NCBI GenBank assembly: GCA_964036665.1
Contig: OZ038533.1
Span: 12,918,413 to 12,982,412, forward strand
Origin: Gordius sp. MW1
Taxonomy: Eukaryota > Nematomorpha > Gordioida > Gordea > Gordiidae
Length of the DNA: 64,000 nucleotides
Direction: 5' to 3'
Positions 30,412 to 60,850 of the stretch are shown one piece after another; positions within the stretch are counted from its first letter, which is position 1; every line of letters starts with the position of its first letter. The notes under the pieces are model-generated. The model did not search any database. It saw nothing but the letters and a program-made list of their open reading frames with translations, and had not been told where the DNA came from. The position numbers and the translations under genes were made by a program.

Positions 30412-31295
30412 CAACATTTTGTGGCAATATAAAGGTATGATAAATAGATATATTAACTTTTTTCCTAGATAAATCATTTGGAATTTTTAATCTCTTCAAA
30501 CAAGATTTGTTAATCCAACATTTTGTGGCAATATAAAGGTATGATAAATAGATATATTAACTTTTTTTCCTAGATAAATCATTTGGAATTTTTAATCTCT
30601 TCAAACAAGATTTGTTAATTCAACATTTTGTGGCAATATAAAGGTATGATAAATAGATATATTAACTTTTTTCCTAGATAAATCATTTGGAATTTTTAAT
30701 CTCTTCAAACAAGATTTGTTAATTCAACATTTTGTGGCAATATAAAGGTAGGATAAATAGATATATTAACTTTTTTCCTAGATAAATCATTTGGAATTTT
30801 TAATCTCTTCAAACAAGATTTGTTAATTCAACATTTTGTGGCAATATAAATGTATGATAAATAGATATATTAACTTTTTTCCTAGATAAATCATTTCGGA
30901 ATTTTTAATCTCTTCAAACAAGATTTGTTAATTCAACATTTTGTGGCAATATAAAGGTATGATAAATAGATATATTAACTTTTTTCCTAGATAAATCATT
31001 TGGAATTTTTAATCTCTTCAAACAAGATTTGTTAATTCAACATTTTGAGGCAATATAAAGGTATGATAAATAGATATATTAACTTTTTTCCTAGATAAAT
31101 CATTTAGAATTTTTAATCTCTTCAAACAAGATTTGTTAATTCAACATTTTGTGGCAATATAAAGGTATGATAAATAGATATATTAACTTTTTTCCTAGAT
31201 AAATCATTTGGAATTTTTAACTCTTCAAACAAAATTTGTTAATTCAACATTTTGTGGCAATATAAAGGTATGATAAATAGATATATTAACTTTTT
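30412..31295. repeat. Left array of 104-bp subrepeats
   Basis: The unit begins CAACATTTTGTGGCAATATA and contains TTTTTTCCTAGATAAATCAT and CTCTTCAAACAAGATTTGTT. Eight full copies plus a partial ninth run head to tail with only a few substitutions between copies, which points to homogenisation or recent expansion. Confidence 0.9.
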
Positions 31296-31317
31296 TTTTG
31301 ATTTACCATTTGAAAAT

Positions 31318-31590
31318 TATGATACTTTTTATCAATTCATGACTTTATTTTCAGTTGTTAAATGATACTTTTTATCTATTCATTTTATTTTCAGTTATTA
31401 AATGACACTTTTTATCTATTCATGACTTTATTTACAGTTGTTAAATGATACTTTTTATCTATTTGTGATTTTATTTTCAGTTATTAAATGACACTTTTTA
31501 TCTATTCATGACTTTATTTTCAGTTGTTAAATGATACTTTTTATCTATTCATTTTATTTTCAGTTGTTAAATGATACTTTTTATAATAGA
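31318..31590. repeat. Left inner array of about 43-bp subrepeats
   Basis: The unit TTAAATGATACTTTTTATCT, then ATTCATGACTTTATTTTCAG, repeats about six times. Some copies lack six bases (ATGACT). The mirror array is at 33155-33450. Confidence 0.85.
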
Positions 31591-33154
31591 ATAGAAATTA
31601 TTACAAAACAAAATGATTTTAATTTCATTTTGCCATTTATTTAGGTTGCTCATCATTAGCAAGTATCAAGCCATCCCTTTCATGGAATTCTTTTCAATTA
31701 TGCACAAGTATATAACACTTATTAAGATGAAGTAATTTTATTTTAGATACTCAAACAAATTTGCCCGAAAAGGAGATGGCGAAGAAAATTCTACCACCTG
31801 TATTAAATTTTAATTTAAAAAAATGATTATTATATTTATTTTTGTTATATATATACAATAAAATTGCTAAATAAATTTTTCTAGTAACTTCCAAAAGGAA
31901 AATATCATGTTTTTAAATTTACAAGTTAATTTTTGTTGAAATGATTAGGTATCATAAATAATTTATTAGCTCTTTTGCAAACTTCCTTCTTACAAATCAT
32001 AAGCTTAGTTTGTGATAATGTAGTGTAACAAAATAAAATATTAATTTGCTAAGTGTAGATTTTTTATTTTCATATTTAATTTTATACAGTTAACACTTTG
32101 TAGGTCAAGTGGGGTGATAATGACCCCGAGCCGTTTAAAAATTCTGTATGAAATAAATTAGTGAATATTACAATTTTATTTTTTCAGTAGCTTAATATAA
32201 TATATCTTTTTGTGTATGAAGCAAAATAGTCATTAGGGGAAAAATTTTGGGGGTCGTTCTAAATATAGATATAAAATTTTAACCACTTGATCAAATAGCC
32301 AAATTTATATATTAATTAACGTATAGAGTGGAAATATTTTTCTTGCAAATTTTGGCAACTAAGTTATAGCTATTTAATGCTTAGGTTTATAATGACCCCA
32401 AATCTGTGTTAGGATTTATAACCCAACCAACGAAGGGTTAAATTTAATTTTGATAATAAAGGTTGGAATTTATTGAATTGATAAAAAACATTTAAAGTAT
32501 TTGTCTCAGCAATTTCTCTGAAATTAATGATAAAAATCCTAAGACATAATAAACGAATGTCAGCTTCAGTTTATTATTTTTAAACAATAAGATACAATGG
32601 TGAATATGAATGTCATTGTATAAAATCAGTGGATTTGGATTGATAGCGTAGGTAGAGGAAAATGTAAAGCGATATTTTGGACACTAATGGTCCATCTTCT
32701 GGGAAAAAAAGGAGAAGATTAAGTTTCATAAAATAAAAACGAAGTAAAGTGATTATGACAACGATGATATAGATAAAAAATATTACAAAAACTGGTTATA
32801 GCGAGAAATTAACAATAGCGATTGTAGGGATGGATGTTTATATAAGAATTTAGTCGTTGATTTTGTTTTTTGGGCTTGACGCGGTCGATTAAAACGGTTT
32901 CTATGAACTTCCTTTGTTGTATCGCACTATTTGAATGGAAGTCGGGTGGTCAAAATCTGCAATGTTGAATCTTTAAACATAGTTAGGCTAAGGCGGAGTA
33001 GGTCGCGCATTTTTGCACCTTTATGTCAATGTTCTTTTTTGTTGTTGTTTCTCCAAGTCTAAAAAATGATAGTAATCGATACAGGAGAATATATAAATTA
33101 AAATTCGAGTATTATCTGTTATGATATTATAAAGGTGTAATACAACAAAAGGTT

Positions 33155-33450
33155 AATAACTGAAAATAAAATCACGAATAGATAAAAAGTATCATTTAAT
33201 AACTGAAAATAAAATGAATAGATAAAAAGTATCATTTAACAACTGAAAATAAAATGAATAGATAAAAAGTATCATTTAACAACTGAAAATAAAGTCATGA
33301 ATAGATAAAAAGTGTCATTTAATAACTGAAAATAAAATCACGAATAGATAAAAAGTATCATTTAACAACTGTAAATAAAGTCATGAATAGATAAAAAGTA
33401 TCATTTAACAACTGAAAATAAAGTCATGAATTGATAAAAAGTATCATAAT
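33155..33450. repeat. Right inner array of about 43-bp subrepeats
   Basis: Inverse of the left inner array, reading AACTGAAAATAAAGTCATGA then ATAGATAAAAAGTATCATTT, about six to seven copies. Confidence 0.85.
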
Positions 33451-33452
33451 TT

Positions 33453-34145
33453 TCAAATGGTAAATCAAAAAAATAGTTAATATATCTATTTAATACCTTT
33501 ATATTGCCACAAAATGTTGAATTAACAAATCTTGTTTGAAGAGTTAAAAATTCCAAATGATTTATCTAGGAAAAAAGTTAATATATCTATTTATCATACC
33601 TTTATATTGCCACAAAATGTTGAATTAACAAATCTTGTGTGAAGAGATTAAAAATTCCAAATGATTTATCTAGGAAAAAAGTTAATATATCTATTTATCA
33701 TACCTTTATATTGCCACAAAATGTTGAATTAACAAATCTTGTTTGAAGAGATTAAAAATTCCAAATGATTTATCTAGGAAAAAAGTTAATATATCTATTT
33801 ATCATACCTTTATATTGCCACAAAATGTTGGATTAACAAATCTTGTTTGAAGAGATTAAAAATTCCAAATGATTTATCTAGGAAAAAAGTTAATATATCT
33901 ATTTATCATACCTTTATATTGCCACAAAATGTTGAATTAACAAATCTTGTTTGAAGAGATTAAAAATTCCAAATGATTTATCTAGGAAAAAAGTTAATAT
34001 ATCTATTTATCATACCTTTATATTGCCACAAAATGTTGAATTAACAAATCTTGTTTGAAGAGATTAAAAATTCCAAATGATTTATCTAGGAAAAAAGTTA
34101 ATATATCTATTTATCATACCTTTATATTGCCACAAAATGTTGTTG
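33453..34145. repeat. Right array of 104-bp subrepeats
   Basis: Inverse of the left 104-bp array with six full copies and a partial copy. The innermost copy is diverged at TTTAATACC, near where the left array also changes. Confidence 0.9.
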
Positions 34146-54853: not shown

Positions 54854-55084
54854 TTAACGAATATTAGAGATGTCATTCAATATACTTTGATGTGGTATAT
54901 TGAGATGCTCTTTGGTCACCAAAAATGAATTTGCATATTTTATAGCCCTCCCAGGACATTTTTTATTTTTACAACGCAGGTAAATTTGAGAATTTTTTCC
55001 TGTTTTATATTTGGTGTAATGATAATTATTAAAACTATAAATAGGTTGATTTTTTTCACTTCGACGCAAAATGTGGAAAGCTAG
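54854..55084 (-). CDS. FLYWCH-type zinc finger exon or fragment
   Basis: The minus-strand frame includes LRRSEKNQPIYSFNNYHYTK, then YLRCKNKKCPGRAIKYANSF and a terminal HLNIPH, and stops at TAA 54854. A FLYWCH finger needs F/Y--Y-(L/W)-C-x4-C-(RA)...H-x-H; here C-KNKK-C-PGRA is present, but the last pair is H-x4-H. No ATG opens the frame (the first codons follow a TTTCTAG acceptor-like site), so this is an internal exon or a broken copy. It is head to head with the MULE gene at 55261 but much diverged from that gene's own FLYWCH finger. Confidence 0.5.
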   Translation of the reverse strand, partial: LAFHILRRSEKNQPIYSFNNYHYTKYKTGKNSQIYLRCKNKKCPGRAIKYANSFLVTKEHLNIPHQSILNDISNIR

Positions 55085-55260
55085 AAATACGGAAAACTAA
55101 TCAAATTCATTGGCAATTTCGCAGGATATGTGACATAACAACTAATATTATTAACGCTAAATCATACCAATTTCGAATTTTAATTATTAAAATTTAGTTA
55201 CAATCTAGACTAATTATTGTATCTTTCATTTTAAGATTTTACTATATATCAATCCTAATT

Positions 55261-58200
55261 ATGAATAGGAGTGAGCAATTTTTTTTTGAAACTTCTGGAA
55301 AGAGGCCTATAAGTAATATAATTTACTTTTTAAAATCATTGAATTATAAATATCTTTTAGGTCTTCCAACTAATCAAAGTGCCAATGTTGCCCAGCCTAT
55401 AATTCAGACTAGGCCTAACTTAAGATCTGGTAAATATTTTTTTACACTATATATTTTTAGGTTATAATCAAAGTCCCAATGTTGCCCAGCCTATGATTTT
55501 AACTAGGCCTAACTTACCATCTGGTAAATATTTTTTTACACTATATATTTTTAGGTTTTAATCAAAGTCCCAATGTTGCCCAGCCTATGATTTTAACTAG
55601 GCCTAACTTAAGATCTGGTAAATATTTTTTTACACTTTATATTTTTAGGTTATAATCAAAGTCCCAATGTTGCCCAGCCTATAATTTTAACTAGGCCTAA
55701 CTTAAGATCTGGTAAATATTTTTTTACACTATATATTTTTAGGTTATAATCAAAGTCCCAATGTTGCCCAGCCTATGATTTTAACTAGGCCTAACTTAAG
55801 ATCTGGTAAATATTTTTTTACACTATATATTTTTAGGTTATAATCAAAGTCCCAATGTTGCCCAGCCTATAATTTTAACTAGGCCTAACTTAAGATCTGG
55901 TAAATATTTTTTTACACTATATATTTTTAGGTTATAATCAAAGTCCCAATGTTGCCCAGCCTATAATTTTAACTAGGCCTAACTTAAGATCTGGTAAATA
56001 TTTTTTTACACTATATATTTTTAGGTTATAATCAAAGTCCCAATGTTGCCCAGCCTATGATTTTAACTAGGCCTAACTTACCATCTGGTAAATATTTTTT
56101 TACACTATATATTTTTAGGTTATAATCAAAGTCCCAATGTTGCCCAGCCTATGATTTTAACTAGGCCTAACTTACCATCTGGTAAATATTTTTTTACACT
56201 ATATATTTTTAGGTTATAATCAAAGTCCCAATGTTGCCCAGCCTATGATTTTAACTAGGCCTAACTTAAGATCTGGTAAATATTTTTTTACACTATATAT
56301 TTTTAGGTTTTAATCAAAGTCCCAATGTTGCCCAGCCTATGATTTTAACTAGGCCTAACTTAAGATCTGGTAAATATTTTTTTACACTATATATTTTTAG
56401 GTTTTAATCAAAGTCCCAATGTTGCCCAGCCTATGATTTTAACTAGGCCTAACTTAAGATCTGGTAAATATTTTTTTACACTATATATTTTTAGGTTATA
56501 ATCAAAGTCCCAATGTTGCCCAGCCTATGATTTTAACTAGGCCTAACTTAAGATCTGGTAAATATTTTTTTACACTATATATTTTTAGGTTATAATCAAA
56601 GTCCCAACGTTGCCCAGCCTATGATTTTAACTAGGCCTAACTTAAGATCTGGTAAATATTTTTTTACACTATATATTTTTAGGTTTTAATCAAAGTCCCA
56701 ATGTTGCCCAGCCTATAATTTTAACTAGGCCTAACTTACCACCTGGTAAATAATTTTTATTTTATACATTTAAAATTCATTAGGTCTACCTTCCAGCCTA
56801 GTTCCGGTGTCTCTCCCTTCAAGTAATAAAACAACATATACGTTTGCGAAAAATATTTGTTGCTTGACATAATAATGTTTTTAACAAATTTCGATTTAGA
56901 TGGTGCCTTAGTAGAGGATGCCTTGCTCCTCGTAGAAACCACAAATCAAATGAGCAGAGGTATGTTTTATTTAAAACTTCTATAATTATTCTAGTGGGCC
57001 CGGAATATCTCACGTCCCAGAAAGGGGGATTAATTTTGTATTACCAATCCCACTTATATCTAACGAGCAAGAAGACACCTCAAAAGGTATACTTTAAATG
57101 TAGAAACGATTCTTGCCCTGCAACAGCTTCGGAGTCTCATGGTCAAATAGTAACCAGACATCGTCATAACCATGAGCCTCCGAGGGAGGAATATGAGGCC
57201 TTGGTGACAAGGCGGGAGCTCAAAAATGCTGTGGCTGCGAATCCGACTATGAAATTTAGTCGGGTTTATAATCAGACTTTGAGCTCCCGACTCCGCAACG
57301 TTCCCGATTTGCGGGATTTTCCTATGGCCCTTCCATCTTTCAAGGCCGTAAAGGATTCGATGAAGAGGTCGGTTGCGGATAGGCAAACGATCCCCAAGGA
57401 TAGAAGTCAGATTCGCCTGACTGACGCGCAGAGTCTAACTCCCAATAATGAGCAATTCCTCTTATGGAATGACAATAATGAGTTGCTTATTTTTGGGACG
57501 CCTTCGCTCTTAAAGGTCCTGTGCGACGTGGCTTCTATCTATATGGATGGAACATTTAAAGTATGCCCCAAGTTGTATTATCAAGTAAATAATAGTATGT
57601 ATTACTCAATATATATATATATATGACTTTAGCTCTACACCATCCATGCATACTACAAAAACCATATGGTCCCTGTAGTATATGTTTTTATGGCTGATAG
57701 GAAGCGTGAAACATATCGCAGGGTGTTTGATCGGCTTAAAAATATATGTGTTGGTTTTAATTTACGGTTAAACCCAACCTATATTCAAATCGATTTTGAG
57801 CGGGCTGCGAAAGGCGCTCTTCAAATATGTTTTCCCCATGCGACGATAAAAGGTAATCATATTATAATTAATTTAATTTTTTTATTTTTAGGGTGTCTCT
57901 TTCACTTTGCCAAAGCCATGCTAAGGAGGATCGAGAGACTTGAATTTAGGGCGGAATATTCGAGGGATCCCCTTATACGGAAGATGGTACGGCGTGTGTC
58001 CGGATATCCATTTTTGCGACGCGAGGACGTCGACTTCGTTTACACAACGTGTTGGGAAGACCCTATTGTCTCCCAACACCCAAAACTTCGCGCGTTTTAT
58101 GAATATGTTTTTAAAACCTGGGTGCGCCCCTCTGCCACATTTCCTTATGAAATGTGGCAGAGGTATGAGGCTGTTGGTCCCAGGACTAACAATCACCTTG

Positions 58201-58586
58201 AGGGCTATCATAATGCCCTTAAGGTCCTCATGGGTCAGGCCCACCCAGATATATATACATGTATATCCTTTATTATTGAAAATAATGCCAAAACCGAGAT
58301 CAATCTCATACAGATTGATCTCGGTAAGGTTCTATATAATACTAATAGACGCGTACGCTCAAAAAATCTACATATACGCACGCTTATAAATTTATACGCG
58401 GATTCTTCGCGTAATTACGACGTTTTTAATTATATTGATAACATTACCAAATCCTTATCATATAACTTTAATTCGCGTAATTGGAATTTTATTCATACTC
58501 CAAATTCGCGTTTTTATAATGACTCGACGGATGTAAATAATATACAAGAAAGAGTCACTAGTGACTTCACTAGTGACTCCGAATAA
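55261..58586 (+). CDS. FLYWCH + MULE transposase gene, 21 exons, 868 aa, with a 14-exon tandem array
   Basis: Exons: 55261-55312, 55361-55429, fourteen 63-nt exons from 55461 every 94 bp to 56683-56745, then 56784-56822, 56900-56959, 56995-57584, 57633-57852, 57892-58586. The sum is 2607 nt, an unbroken 868-aa frame. Residues 1-367 are mostly repeats of NQSPNVAQPMILTRPNLRS. A FLYWCH finger follows (YFKCRNDSCPATA, HRHNH). The MULE transposase has D552 (YMDGTF), D618 (QIDFE) and E741 (NHLEGY), the expected catalytic triad, so the protein could bind DNA and cut and paste it. All introns are phase 1 except the one after residue 564. Intron sizes are 31-77 nt. AATAAA at 58582-58587 overlaps the stop. 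I see no terminal inverted repeats around it, so it could be an autonomous element with unseen ends or a domesticated gene. Confidence 0.85.
55430..56783 (+). repeat. Tandem exon-intron array, 94-bp unit
   Basis: Each unit is a 63-nt exon plus a 31-nt intron that starts GTAAATATTTTTTTACAC and ends TATATTTTTAG. Fourteen exon copies differ at few positions: TTATAA/TTTTAA near the start, ATGATT/ATAATT, and TTAAGATCTG/TTACCATCTG at the end. None changes length or the splice dinucleotides. If left unspliced, each unit hits TAA at once. The closing intron (56746-56783, 38 nt) is diverged. Confidence 0.9.
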
Positions 58587-58675
58587 AAATACTTTTTCAT
58601 TTTTTTTGAGGGATACCTTAAAAGTCTCAGCCATACGGCGTTTGCTGAGCTTAGACATACGTTTAAAATCTATTA

Positions 58676-58681
58676 ATAAAG
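58676..58681 (+). terminator. Second polyadenylation signal
   Basis: AATAAA lies 90 bases after the MULE gene stop, in addition to the one overlapping the stop. Confidence 0.4.
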
Positions 58682-58789
58682 CACCTTATGTGGGTTGGTA
58701 AGTATTATATTTCTCCTCAAAAAGTGCTAATATTGAGTTGTGTATTCATCCTTTTGTATATGTAATCTAGGTGATAAAGGAGATAAATG

Positions 58790-59465
58790 AGTAGTGATTC
58801 GGAAAACCCAAGAAAATCTCGGAGATGAGAATTTTAACTCGAGACGAGATGGAACGAGATTTTATAGTAGGGATCTCGACTTTAAATTTTCTTTATTGGC
58901 CATCATAATTATTTATATTTACTAAATTAAGTTTATATTTCGTTTTTATGATCTAATATAATTGGGATTTCTCTATTTAGATATTGTACACACCAAAGTT
59001 ATATTAGATTTATAGCCCCTGTAGTATATTTATATGCTGAATAAGATATTAATTTTAATTGATTTTCCTACTTTTCTTATTTTATCTTAATCTTTGTCGA
59101 ATCATCCTTTAAAGCAGTAAAAATGACTGATAGCAATACTTCAGGTCTCCAACGACATCTTAAACGTTACCATCATAAGGATTACTATAACCTTTACCCT
59201 ACTTTTTAAAAAATCTAAGCATTTAACACTATTATATATCAAACTTATTCTTCAAAAATGATTTAAGAATAATATATATTATGTAATTAGTTGATTAACA
59301 AATATAATTATCCCAATTTTGCAGCAATGGCTAGTGATTTTCAGAGCACTCCGGCCTGCCGAAAGATTGTTCTCGAAGGCGTCTCTGACTATTCGAAAAC
59401 ATCGTAATAGATTAACTCATGAATCTGCCAGGAGCTTGCTATGCCTAAATCATGGCACACCTTAA
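58790..59465 (+). pseudogene. Internally deleted hAT transposase (BED finger end + dimerisation domain)
   Basis: 59117-59209 reads TDSNTSGLQRHLKRYHH, the second half of a BED zinc finger. 59325-59465, after a TTTTGCAG acceptor-like site, reads LRPAERLFSKASLTIRKHRN then LTHESARSLLCLNHG and a stop. This is the C-terminal hAT dimerisation signature (ERLFS-AG/S...RN-L--E----L--LN). The catalytic centre between is missing. Left flank 58840-58910 carries the GAGACGAGAT...GGATCTCG...TTATTGGCCATCAT motif shared with 22930-23110. It cannot encode an active transposase but could compete or be mobilised. Confidence 0.7.
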
Positions 59466-59599
59466 CAATTTTCAACCTATCGCATTCATAACATTTTGGG
59501 TCAAAATGTGGGCTTGGCAGATGCATTCAAATTCACTGAAGTCTTTGCAAAGTGCTGCAATTTATCAATAAATTAAAATATATGAACAAAGGTTTGATT

Positions 59600-60850
59600 A
59601 GTAGATAATTATTTTATGAAAAAAATTAATAAACAATGGATTAACTAAATACTTTGTTATGTATAATGGGATGTCACACTATAATAGAATTATCAAATAT
59701 TGAACATAGATATAAAGGGTTTACTTATTTTTTAGGTATATTGTCATAGAAACCACAAAGGTGCGTATGTATAGTCATTATATATATTAGTAATTAGTTG
59801 TACACATTACAAATATTACACTTTATATATTTAAATTTATTGAATGTTTGTTTATATTCATTTAACACCCGTATTATATATAATCATATACATATGCATG
59901 AGATTAAGGACGTGACATTTTATTTACTTAATTATATTATATTTTTAAACTTATTTGTATTTATTAATCAATTTAAATATTTTGTATAATAATTAAATAT
60001 GACTTGTTTTATAATAGATCTATTAAATTGTATGATATTAAGTAGATATAATGCATTTCGAATATATATGTATACAAGTATATGCATAGTACATAAATAT
60101 TAATAATACAATATAGATATGTATATATAAGTATAAATATATATCGTGCCTATATGTACAAGTATAAATATATAATGAATAATTATCAAATATATGTACA
60201 TATGTAAGTATAAATATATAGTATTACAATGTATTTTACTTATAATAAATATAGTTTCAAACTTTTATAGCTATTATTAACATATATATATCTTTAATAT
60301 TATTATTTATATTATGAATACGTATGTATATCTATAATTATTCACATATATTGTATTTATATAATTGTAAATGTATATATGTAGTGCATATATACTTTTG
60401 AATACATAGATGGCTGTAAATATATGTAATAACGATATAATTATGGTATATTATAATGTATGTAATATACAGCACATATTTATATATATAATATATTATA
60501 TATATTGTATATATTTATTTATGTAATTAACTCTTTTTAATTTGATATTTTAGATCAATATCTTGTTTGTAAGTACTTTCGTTTTAAAAACTTTGCCTTT
60601 ACAAACGAAACGATAAACACAGCTGTTTTTCTGTATCTGAATAGCTTACGCTAAATTCAGCCAATTTTAACGCTTCGTCCGCCATTTTAAAATAGGAAAG
60701 TATATCAAGTAATATATCCATTAGGAATACGTCATCTAAGCTACGTCCCCCTTTTTATAATTAACTACCACCAGCCATTTTTCAAGTTAGTTACGTTTAA
60801 TTAGATTTTCTCATTATATTTAACAATAATTTATCCCCATGTTTTACATA
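59600..60850. other. Very AT-rich stretch with TATA-type microsatellite character
   Basis: From about 59780 to 60530 the sequence is dominated by ATATAT/GTATAT runs. No gene seen. Near 60540-60850 it becomes mixed and leads into the THAP gene. Confidence 0.5.

Follow-up and report, generated by a model that had tools for sequence, protein, structure and literature searches.

The window, the whole 64,000-nt stretch of Gordius sp. MW1 DNA that was analyzed, carries on its plus strand a gene which, as judged from its predicted protein, is a Phantom-type (FLYWCH plus MULE) Mutator transposase gene with an array of tandem 94-bp units in its 5' part. The spliced model runs from an ATG at 55261 to a stop at 58586 and encodes 868 amino acids in 21 exons separated by 20 introns (48, 14 x 31, 38, 77, 35, 48 and 39 nt), five of which lie outside the array, one of 48 nt upstream and four of 77, 35, 48 and 39 nt downstream of it. 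This bears out the unbroken spliced frame, from this ATG to the transposase stop, that had been claimed in the preliminary description of the locus.

The transposase and the ends of the element

Pfam recognized PF04500 (FLYWCH) at residues 372 to 427 and PF10551 (MULE) at residues 549 to 645 of the 868, both above the cut-off, which places the FLYWCH zinc finger N-terminal to the catalytic domain. The name Phantom for this type follows excerpts of PMC3169594. In the 534-residue C-terminal part of the protein, D218, D284, E407, C305 and H308 are invariant in all nine aligned proteins, window included, and by analogy with the excerpted text of PMC5225508 these residues would represent the DDE triad and the C..H of the MULE fold. 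The transposase core therefore looks intact. Its closest named relatives among the matches listed are uncharacterized MULE proteins (P0002 to P0007) of Gordionus sp. (Nematomorpha), with 33 to 38% identity.

The element starts at 55056/55057 inside another multicopy repeat (91 to 100% identity), of which the part on the left of the element ends at 55056; in the 10 loci compared, this repeat has a different continuation at the junction. Its left end (55057 to 55145, plus strand) is a multicopy, terminal-repeat-like sequence that recurs with 82 to 92% identity in 9 of 20 loci compared, in seven of these nine oriented opposite to a unit-like exon. No inverted counterpart of this sequence was found in 54900 to 60499, and searches for a right end, a terminal inverted repeat and a target site duplication of 8 to 9 bp of the window element found none. 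Apart from a match of 30 to 33 bp at 60583, the window did not contain the second half of the interrupted repeat beside the element. A relative on C1, an inverted pair of ~95% identity, matches the window up to 60491 on one arm and up to 59772 on the other.

Structure of the array and of the gene around it

The array (55430 to 56745, plus strand) comprises 14 head-to-tail units of 94 bp, each consisting of a 31-nt GT..AG intron and a 63-nt exon. TRF reported a period of 94 with 14.8 copies, 97% matches and 0% indels over 55371 to 56758, and there is no doubt that the tandem repeat itself is real and not due to chance. All 14 introns are exactly 31 nt long and have GTAAAT..TTTTAG ends, 13 of them being identical and one carrying a single substitution; all 14 exons are exactly 63 nt long, fall into six distinct sequences and encode a peptide that approximates GYNQSPNVAQPMILTRPNLRS. 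The array is preceded by exon 2 (55361 to 55429), a diverged 69-nt first copy of the repeat exon, and is closed by a 38-nt intron (56746 to 56783), which has the length of both array introns of L041, a related fragment described below. In the sequence model, 15 of 15 array introns have GT..AG ends and restore the frame upon predicted removal.

These results uphold two earlier claims, namely 14 units of 94 bp with 31-nt introns inside a transposase gene (unit split and TRF), and phase-1 exons of 63 nt that keep their length and GT/AG in every copy (unit listing). The count of 14 array exons holds for the units of identical length, the total being 15 with the diverged 69-nt copy. It had also been stated that each unit, if unspliced, stops at once, which is nearly right: the 31-nt intron itself is open in the exon frame, and since its length is not divisible by three, the stop would be reached soon after the start of the following unit.

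Upstream of the array, the model places exon 1 (55261 to 55312; 52 nt), which contains the ATG and is matched by an equally long exon in L041, and intron 1 (55313 to 55360; 48 nt), which is in frame and open, such that its retention would add 16 residues. Downstream follow a 39-nt linker exon that lacks Met (56784 to 56822), a 77-nt intron (56823 to 56899), part of which is tandemly repeated in related degenerate elements, and the exon for a DALLLVxxTNQM stretch that is conserved in paralogues (56900 to 56959). After a 35-nt intron (56960 to 56994), a 590-nt exon encodes the FLYWCH domain and the start of the catalytic domain as located with Pfam (56995 to 57584), and the rest, placed with the aid of the alignment, consists of a 48-nt intron (57585 to 57632), a 220-nt MULE catalytic exon (57633 to 57852), a 39-nt intron (57853 to 57891) and a last exon of 695 nt with the catalytic Glu and the stop codon (57892 to 58586). 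In the degenerate relatives L042 to L054 we observed a unit-like exon and, in most of them, tandem copies of the region of the 77-nt intron; in L046 (3602 to 4083) and others of this group, the sequence of 56814 to 56882 is tandemly repeated with a spacing of ~103 bp.

The last three introns occupy conserved positions in the window gene and in the spliced models of two paralogues, L060 and L058, where their lengths are 35/33/36, 48/41/38 and 39/35/42 nt, respectively. These conserved introns of 33 to 48 nt, located in or next to the domains, suggest that members of this family cope with very small introns. Against the host myosin genes, 31 nt is very short for an intron: 39 of 47 estimated myosin introns measured 116 to 1400 nt, three exceeded 1400 nt and five were below 100 nt, some of the latter not being real. 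Eight of 85 listed myosin matches contained an excess of 36 to 84 nt, which may represent short introns.

The transposase ORF also contains three perfect coding hairpins (58129 to 58163, 58293 to 58325 and 58552 to 58579, with arms of 15, 14 and 13), compared with an average of 0.02 over 60 shuffles. Two such hairpins occur in L060 and two in L058, of which one is common to both and none is the same as in the window, and four more hairpins of this kind lie elsewhere in the 64 kb. Coding palindromes are known from nematomorph mitochondrial genes (PMC6649704), and the text of that paper never uses the term "nuclear"; nuclear coding palindromes in Nematomorpha could make a separate finding. We also noted copies of COX1 in nuclear chromosomes, e.g. 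at C8:2829490-2830827, one of them nearly full length, which are probably mitochondrial insertions; COX1 is also present on a 14,798-base contig of the same genome. The protein encoded there shares 97% identity with that of Gordius sp. VVA-2019 and 92% with that of Gordionus alpestris, which identifies the host as a horsehair worm (Nematomorpha).

Paralogous arrays in the same genome

A search of the organism's own genome (211.8 Mb, 12 contigs) with the transposase gave at least 50 matches, with 40 of 121 candidates scored, and 20 regions, plus smaller pieces taken later, were used for comparison. Among the six transposase-bearing regions L055 to L060, three (L057, L058 and L060) have an array just before FLYWCH; tandem-repeat scans of L056, L059 and L055, in which that part is missing, found none ahead of the gene.

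The L060 array has a 144-bp unit (105 + 39) in 12.8 copies, with all 12 internal exons 105 nt long, and the modelled spliced frame, which starts from a 13-nt exon with an ATG, is intact and encodes 969 amino acids. L057 and L058 have arrays of a 125-bp unit (78 + 47) in 16.9 and 18.3 copies, respectively, and are the two arms of one palindrome (C4:18003000-18019000), i.e., head-to-head twin genes with arms of 6.5 kb that are 98.3% alike and an array in each arm; L055 is also a head-to-head twin copy, a palindrome of divergent transposase genes. In L058, 16 of 17 exons are 78 nt long and open, one is 77 nt long and contains a stop, and the introns are 47 or 41 nt. Of the 14 exons recognized in L057, 13 measure 78 nt, one of these containing a stop, and the last measures 74 nt; 12 are thus sound, and an acceptor is lost upstream. 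Altogether, broken exons number one of 17 in L058 and two of 14 in L057, with at least one acceptor lost, as counted with an exon pattern that misses units with mutated splice sites. The sole long-enough ATG frame between both arrays of this pair hits a stop before the array. L062/L063 is a fourth lineage, with a 110-bp unit; all seven exons of L062 are 69 or 123 nt, the longer exon having two extra 27-nt (9-codon) repeats, and its introns are 41 nt, with an in-frame acceptor 9 nt upstream that would also permit a 32-nt intron. L041 is a 5' fragment followed by unrelated sequence, with exons of 69, 63 and 57 nt and introns of 38 nt. The 94-bp family itself yielded one full array, one three-exon relative and otherwise single unit-like matches.

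In L060, L058/L057, L062 and L041 the array exons are all phase 1, and in four paralogous arrays the unit exons have lengths divisible by three. Between lineages the unit peptides are very different, with short motifs such as QPI and RP recurring by eye. Thus the trait, which had been noticed in the window gene alone, is broader: to judge by the sequence comparison, an array at the same position of the gene is a trait of the family, with a unit of its own in each lineage. The evidential weight rests on these paralogous arrays, because the 14 window units are copies of one event; treating them as 14 independent pieces of evidence was rejected.

The comparison also bears on whether the array might be translated unspliced, with the "introns" as part of the repeat. 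This would work for L060, where the 144-bp unit amounts to 48 open codons and the 39-nt "intron" is in frame, open and has a GTAC donor, so the L060 array need not be spliced. The same reading fails for the window (94 bp), L058 (125 bp), L062 (110 bp) and L041, i.e., for four of the five array types, in which the intron carries or causes a stop when retained. It is thereby refuted for the window, and we regard it as scarcely credible overall.

Variation in array length

The 110-bp family permitted a comparison of many closely similar copies. Its 3' anchor is 99 to 100% identical at 25 places and its 5' anchor 97 to 100% at 24, counting partial 5' matches of at least 92 bases and leaving out shorter ones; one 3' anchor without such a 5' partner was left out, and some of the pairs belong to opposite arms of a single palindrome. 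The family is, by this sequence identity, young. The spans between the fixed anchors, taken whole with any insertions within them, were 728 to 2803 nt in 22 of 24 pairs, with 20 distinct values, and 4895 and 13974 nt in the other two; both arms at C3:21129277/21130038 have a span of 2803. Because these spans differ among near-identical copies, array length appears to change fast. The spans could be decomposed into units of 110 plus 27 for 13 of the 24 copies, so the unit numbers of ~6 to 25 (span divided by 110) are rough. Twin copies of this family, with 5' anchors 0 to ~320 bp apart, were observed at C8:22141633, C7:6438456, C4:19171871, C2:6417581, C1:18496937 and C3:21129277.

Spacings among 150 of the 606 unit matches were mostly 110 or 274, with 247 (27 less) also present and larger gaps reflecting units outside these 150. 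The rare values 109, 112 and 273 correspond to indels of 1 to 2 nt in exon or intron. Entire exon-intron units thus appear to be gained and lost, accompanied now and then by small indels. The proposal that protein length changes by whole-exon steps agrees, as far as spans tell, with the 110-bp family, for which it was not originally made; the 94-bp family is represented by a single full array.

Tandem arrays are hard to assemble, and a false expansion of the array by the assembly was considered. We judge such an artefact to be very improbable, since diverged copies form both ends of the window array, and units of the 110-bp family occur at roughly two dozen sites, in arrays of unequal length.

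Evidence for splicing and translation

Downstream of their arrays, the window gene, L058 and L060 share a conserved DALLLVxxTNQM peptide. Differences in this exon at first, second and third codon positions were 1, 0, 5 (window and L058), 5, 1, 5 (window and L060) and 4, 1, 8 (L058 and L060); comparisons with L056, in which the motif is lost after ten residues, were not clean (4, 2, 5; 3, 2, 4; 3, 3, 9). In the window, the nearest Met before the own Met of this exon is residue 304, which lies inside the array, and in L062 the last array exon runs directly into FLYWCH with no Met between. Since the peptide after the array is conserved and no nearer Met exists, ribosomes probably enter from the array or upstream of it, and the array is probably translated.

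These data weigh on the alternative in which the array is a minisatellite without coding function, close to the 5' end, and transcripts skip it or start downstream, e.g. at the Met before FLYWCH, to give a protein of ~500 amino acids like Muta1 of Aedes aegypti, which has 504 amino acids and FLYWCH at 24 to 92 in the excerpted text of PMC5225508. Skipping would be tolerated by the frame, as the exons are symmetric and joining exon 1 to a later exon is frame-neutral. In addition, 46 relatives among the matches listed have 303 to 695 amino acids (the search admits 0.55 to 1.75 times the 534 residues of the query), none of nine relatives with inspected sequence (one of them partial) has an array, and selection on the array residues is not seen. 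However, the window gene, L058 and L060 show protein-level conservation of residues upstream of the FLYWCH-adjacent Met, L062 offers no Met in this interval, and unit exons have lengths divisible by three in four paralogous arrays. We therefore consider a non-coding array improbable.

With respect to selection, no purifying selection on array residues was visible in the comparison of the window with L041. Differences by codon position were 3, 3, 4 in exon 2 and 3, 4, 3 in the unit; by segment, they amounted to 7 of 48 in intron 1, 10 of 69 in exon 2, 10 of 63 in the unit exon and 4 of 52 in exon 1. One of five variable codons in the window array is synonymous. A coding test based on conserved exons beside unconserved introns was unsupported, as the window and L041 differ about equally in both. 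In favor of translation, exon lengths among the start-bearing arrays (window, L041 and L062) differ by 6, 6, 6 and 54 nt, and the array introns of the window and L041 (31 and 38 nt) by 7.

Shuffled units were used as a control. A strict solution, i.e., a phase-1 split with good splice signals, was found in 134 of 2000 shuffles of the window unit, 43 of 2000 for L058 and 86 of 2000 for L062; L060 has no strict solution, and 75 of 2000 of its shuffles have one. These fractions are a guide and not a p-value, as the strict criteria were set after the sequences had been seen. Under loose criteria 753 of 2000 window shuffles passed (419 to 820 of 2000 over the units), and the real window unit allows three splits. 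Seven further tandem units from the window, among them a 40-bp unit that is too short to hold one, gave no strict phase-1 solution on either strand; w33470, when reversed, gave one strict solution in another phase. The window also contains a Foldback-like structure at 30412 to 31584 and 33153 to 34142, in which two tandem arrays (104-bp and 43-bp units) are repeated in inverted form, and the tested units of these arrays gave no strict phase-1 splice-and-frame solution.

Discussion

On the sequence evidence, we think it quite probable that symmetric phase-1 mini-exons with minimal introns encode the N-terminus of this Phantom-type transposase and are translated as a variable tail. Transcription would start from the left end of the element and translation at the ATG at 55261, the 31-nt introns would be removed constitutively, and translation of all repeats would yield a tail of low complexity, probably disordered, that precedes the DNA-binding finger. 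Unequal exchange or slippage may add and delete units and homogenize them, and because each unit has its own splice sites and whole codons, units could be added or lost without breaking the frame. Each transposase lineage may thereby have acquired its own unit. The repeat would be tolerated rather than selected for its sequence: if symmetric units are gained and lost harmlessly, their retention, homogeneity and turnover are explained without a function of the sequence.

The repeats might instead be kept for a job at the DNA level, as transposase-binding subterminal repeats of the Foldback type, with coding as a condition of their being tolerated, a reading that is compatible with translation as a variable tail. 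Tandem subterminal repeats are described in Foldback and Mutator relatives, namely Tm1 (excerpts of PMC3169594) and Muta1 and others (excerpts of PMC5225508); moreover, twin copies arranged as palindromes occur here, and the array residues look unconstrained. However, the subterminal repeats described in these excerpts are 9 to 15 bp and lie in terminal repeats, whereas the present units are 94 to 144 bp, sit between the ATG and FLYWCH and differ in sequence among lineages. The terminal-repeat-like sequence at 55057 to 55145 also lacks an inverted counterpart in the interval searched. Composite ends of the Foldback type would have tandem repeats within the terminal inverted repeats at both ends; the window array is confined to one side, within the gene, and palindromic twins elsewhere carry one array per arm. 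We hold a DNA-level role to be unlikely.

A more speculative proposal is that the array acts as a built-in splicing governor. Each unit adds one minimal intron, the retention of which would, in four of the five array types, lead to a premature stop, and the yield of full-length transposase would thus fall as unit number rises. Elements could then adjust how active they are, and escape or accommodate silencing by the host, through changes in array length, accompanied by frequent turnover of unit sequence. We consider this doubtful; if true, the governor would be a self-dosing device made of exons, for which we found no match in titles and abstract beginnings of the open-licence literature.

For the favored explanation, a coding array translated as a variable tail, the system would show exon duplication caught in the act, since a single gene family holds roughly two dozen copies, recently dispersed, whose arrays differ in length, as well as four paralogous lineages that differ in their units. 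How symmetric exons multiply, usually seen as fossils only, would become testable now, as would the minimum length of animal introns in rows and array length as a control of transposase output. For annotation, the case is a warning that such genes may be called a minisatellite plus a truncated transposase.

Among known systems, Phantom-like Mutator elements including Muta1 (excerpts of PMC5225508) share the N-terminal FLYWCH, the DDE domain, a core of ~500 amino acids and few introns; Muta1 differs in having two predicted exons and 12-bp tandem repeats in its terminal repeats, with no exon array described in these excerpts. The Tm1 Mutator/Foldback elements of root-knot nematodes (excerpts of PMC3169594) likewise combine a Phantom-type transposase with composite ends that contain tandem repeats, in a worm genome, and differ in that their ~14-bp repeats lie in terminal inverted repeats and are not exons. 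No array was found in the predicted Gordionus proteins P0002, P0003 and P0006 (three sequences). When long MULE proteins were sought elsewhere, with a filter that also missed the known P0002, a single match resulted, the sequence of which has no array. Titles and abstract beginnings of the open-licence literature gave no match for tandem exon arrays in transposases, and those on nematomorph genomes gave no account of introns or transposons.

Collagens, nebulin and the schistosome micro-exon genes also have exons of whole codons and introns of one phase that were amplified by duplication, and the tandem symmetric exons of these host genes are old and diverged. In contrast, the copies in the window are ~97% alike, the introns here are 31 to 47 nt, array length varies among transposon copies, and the unit is replaced among lineages.
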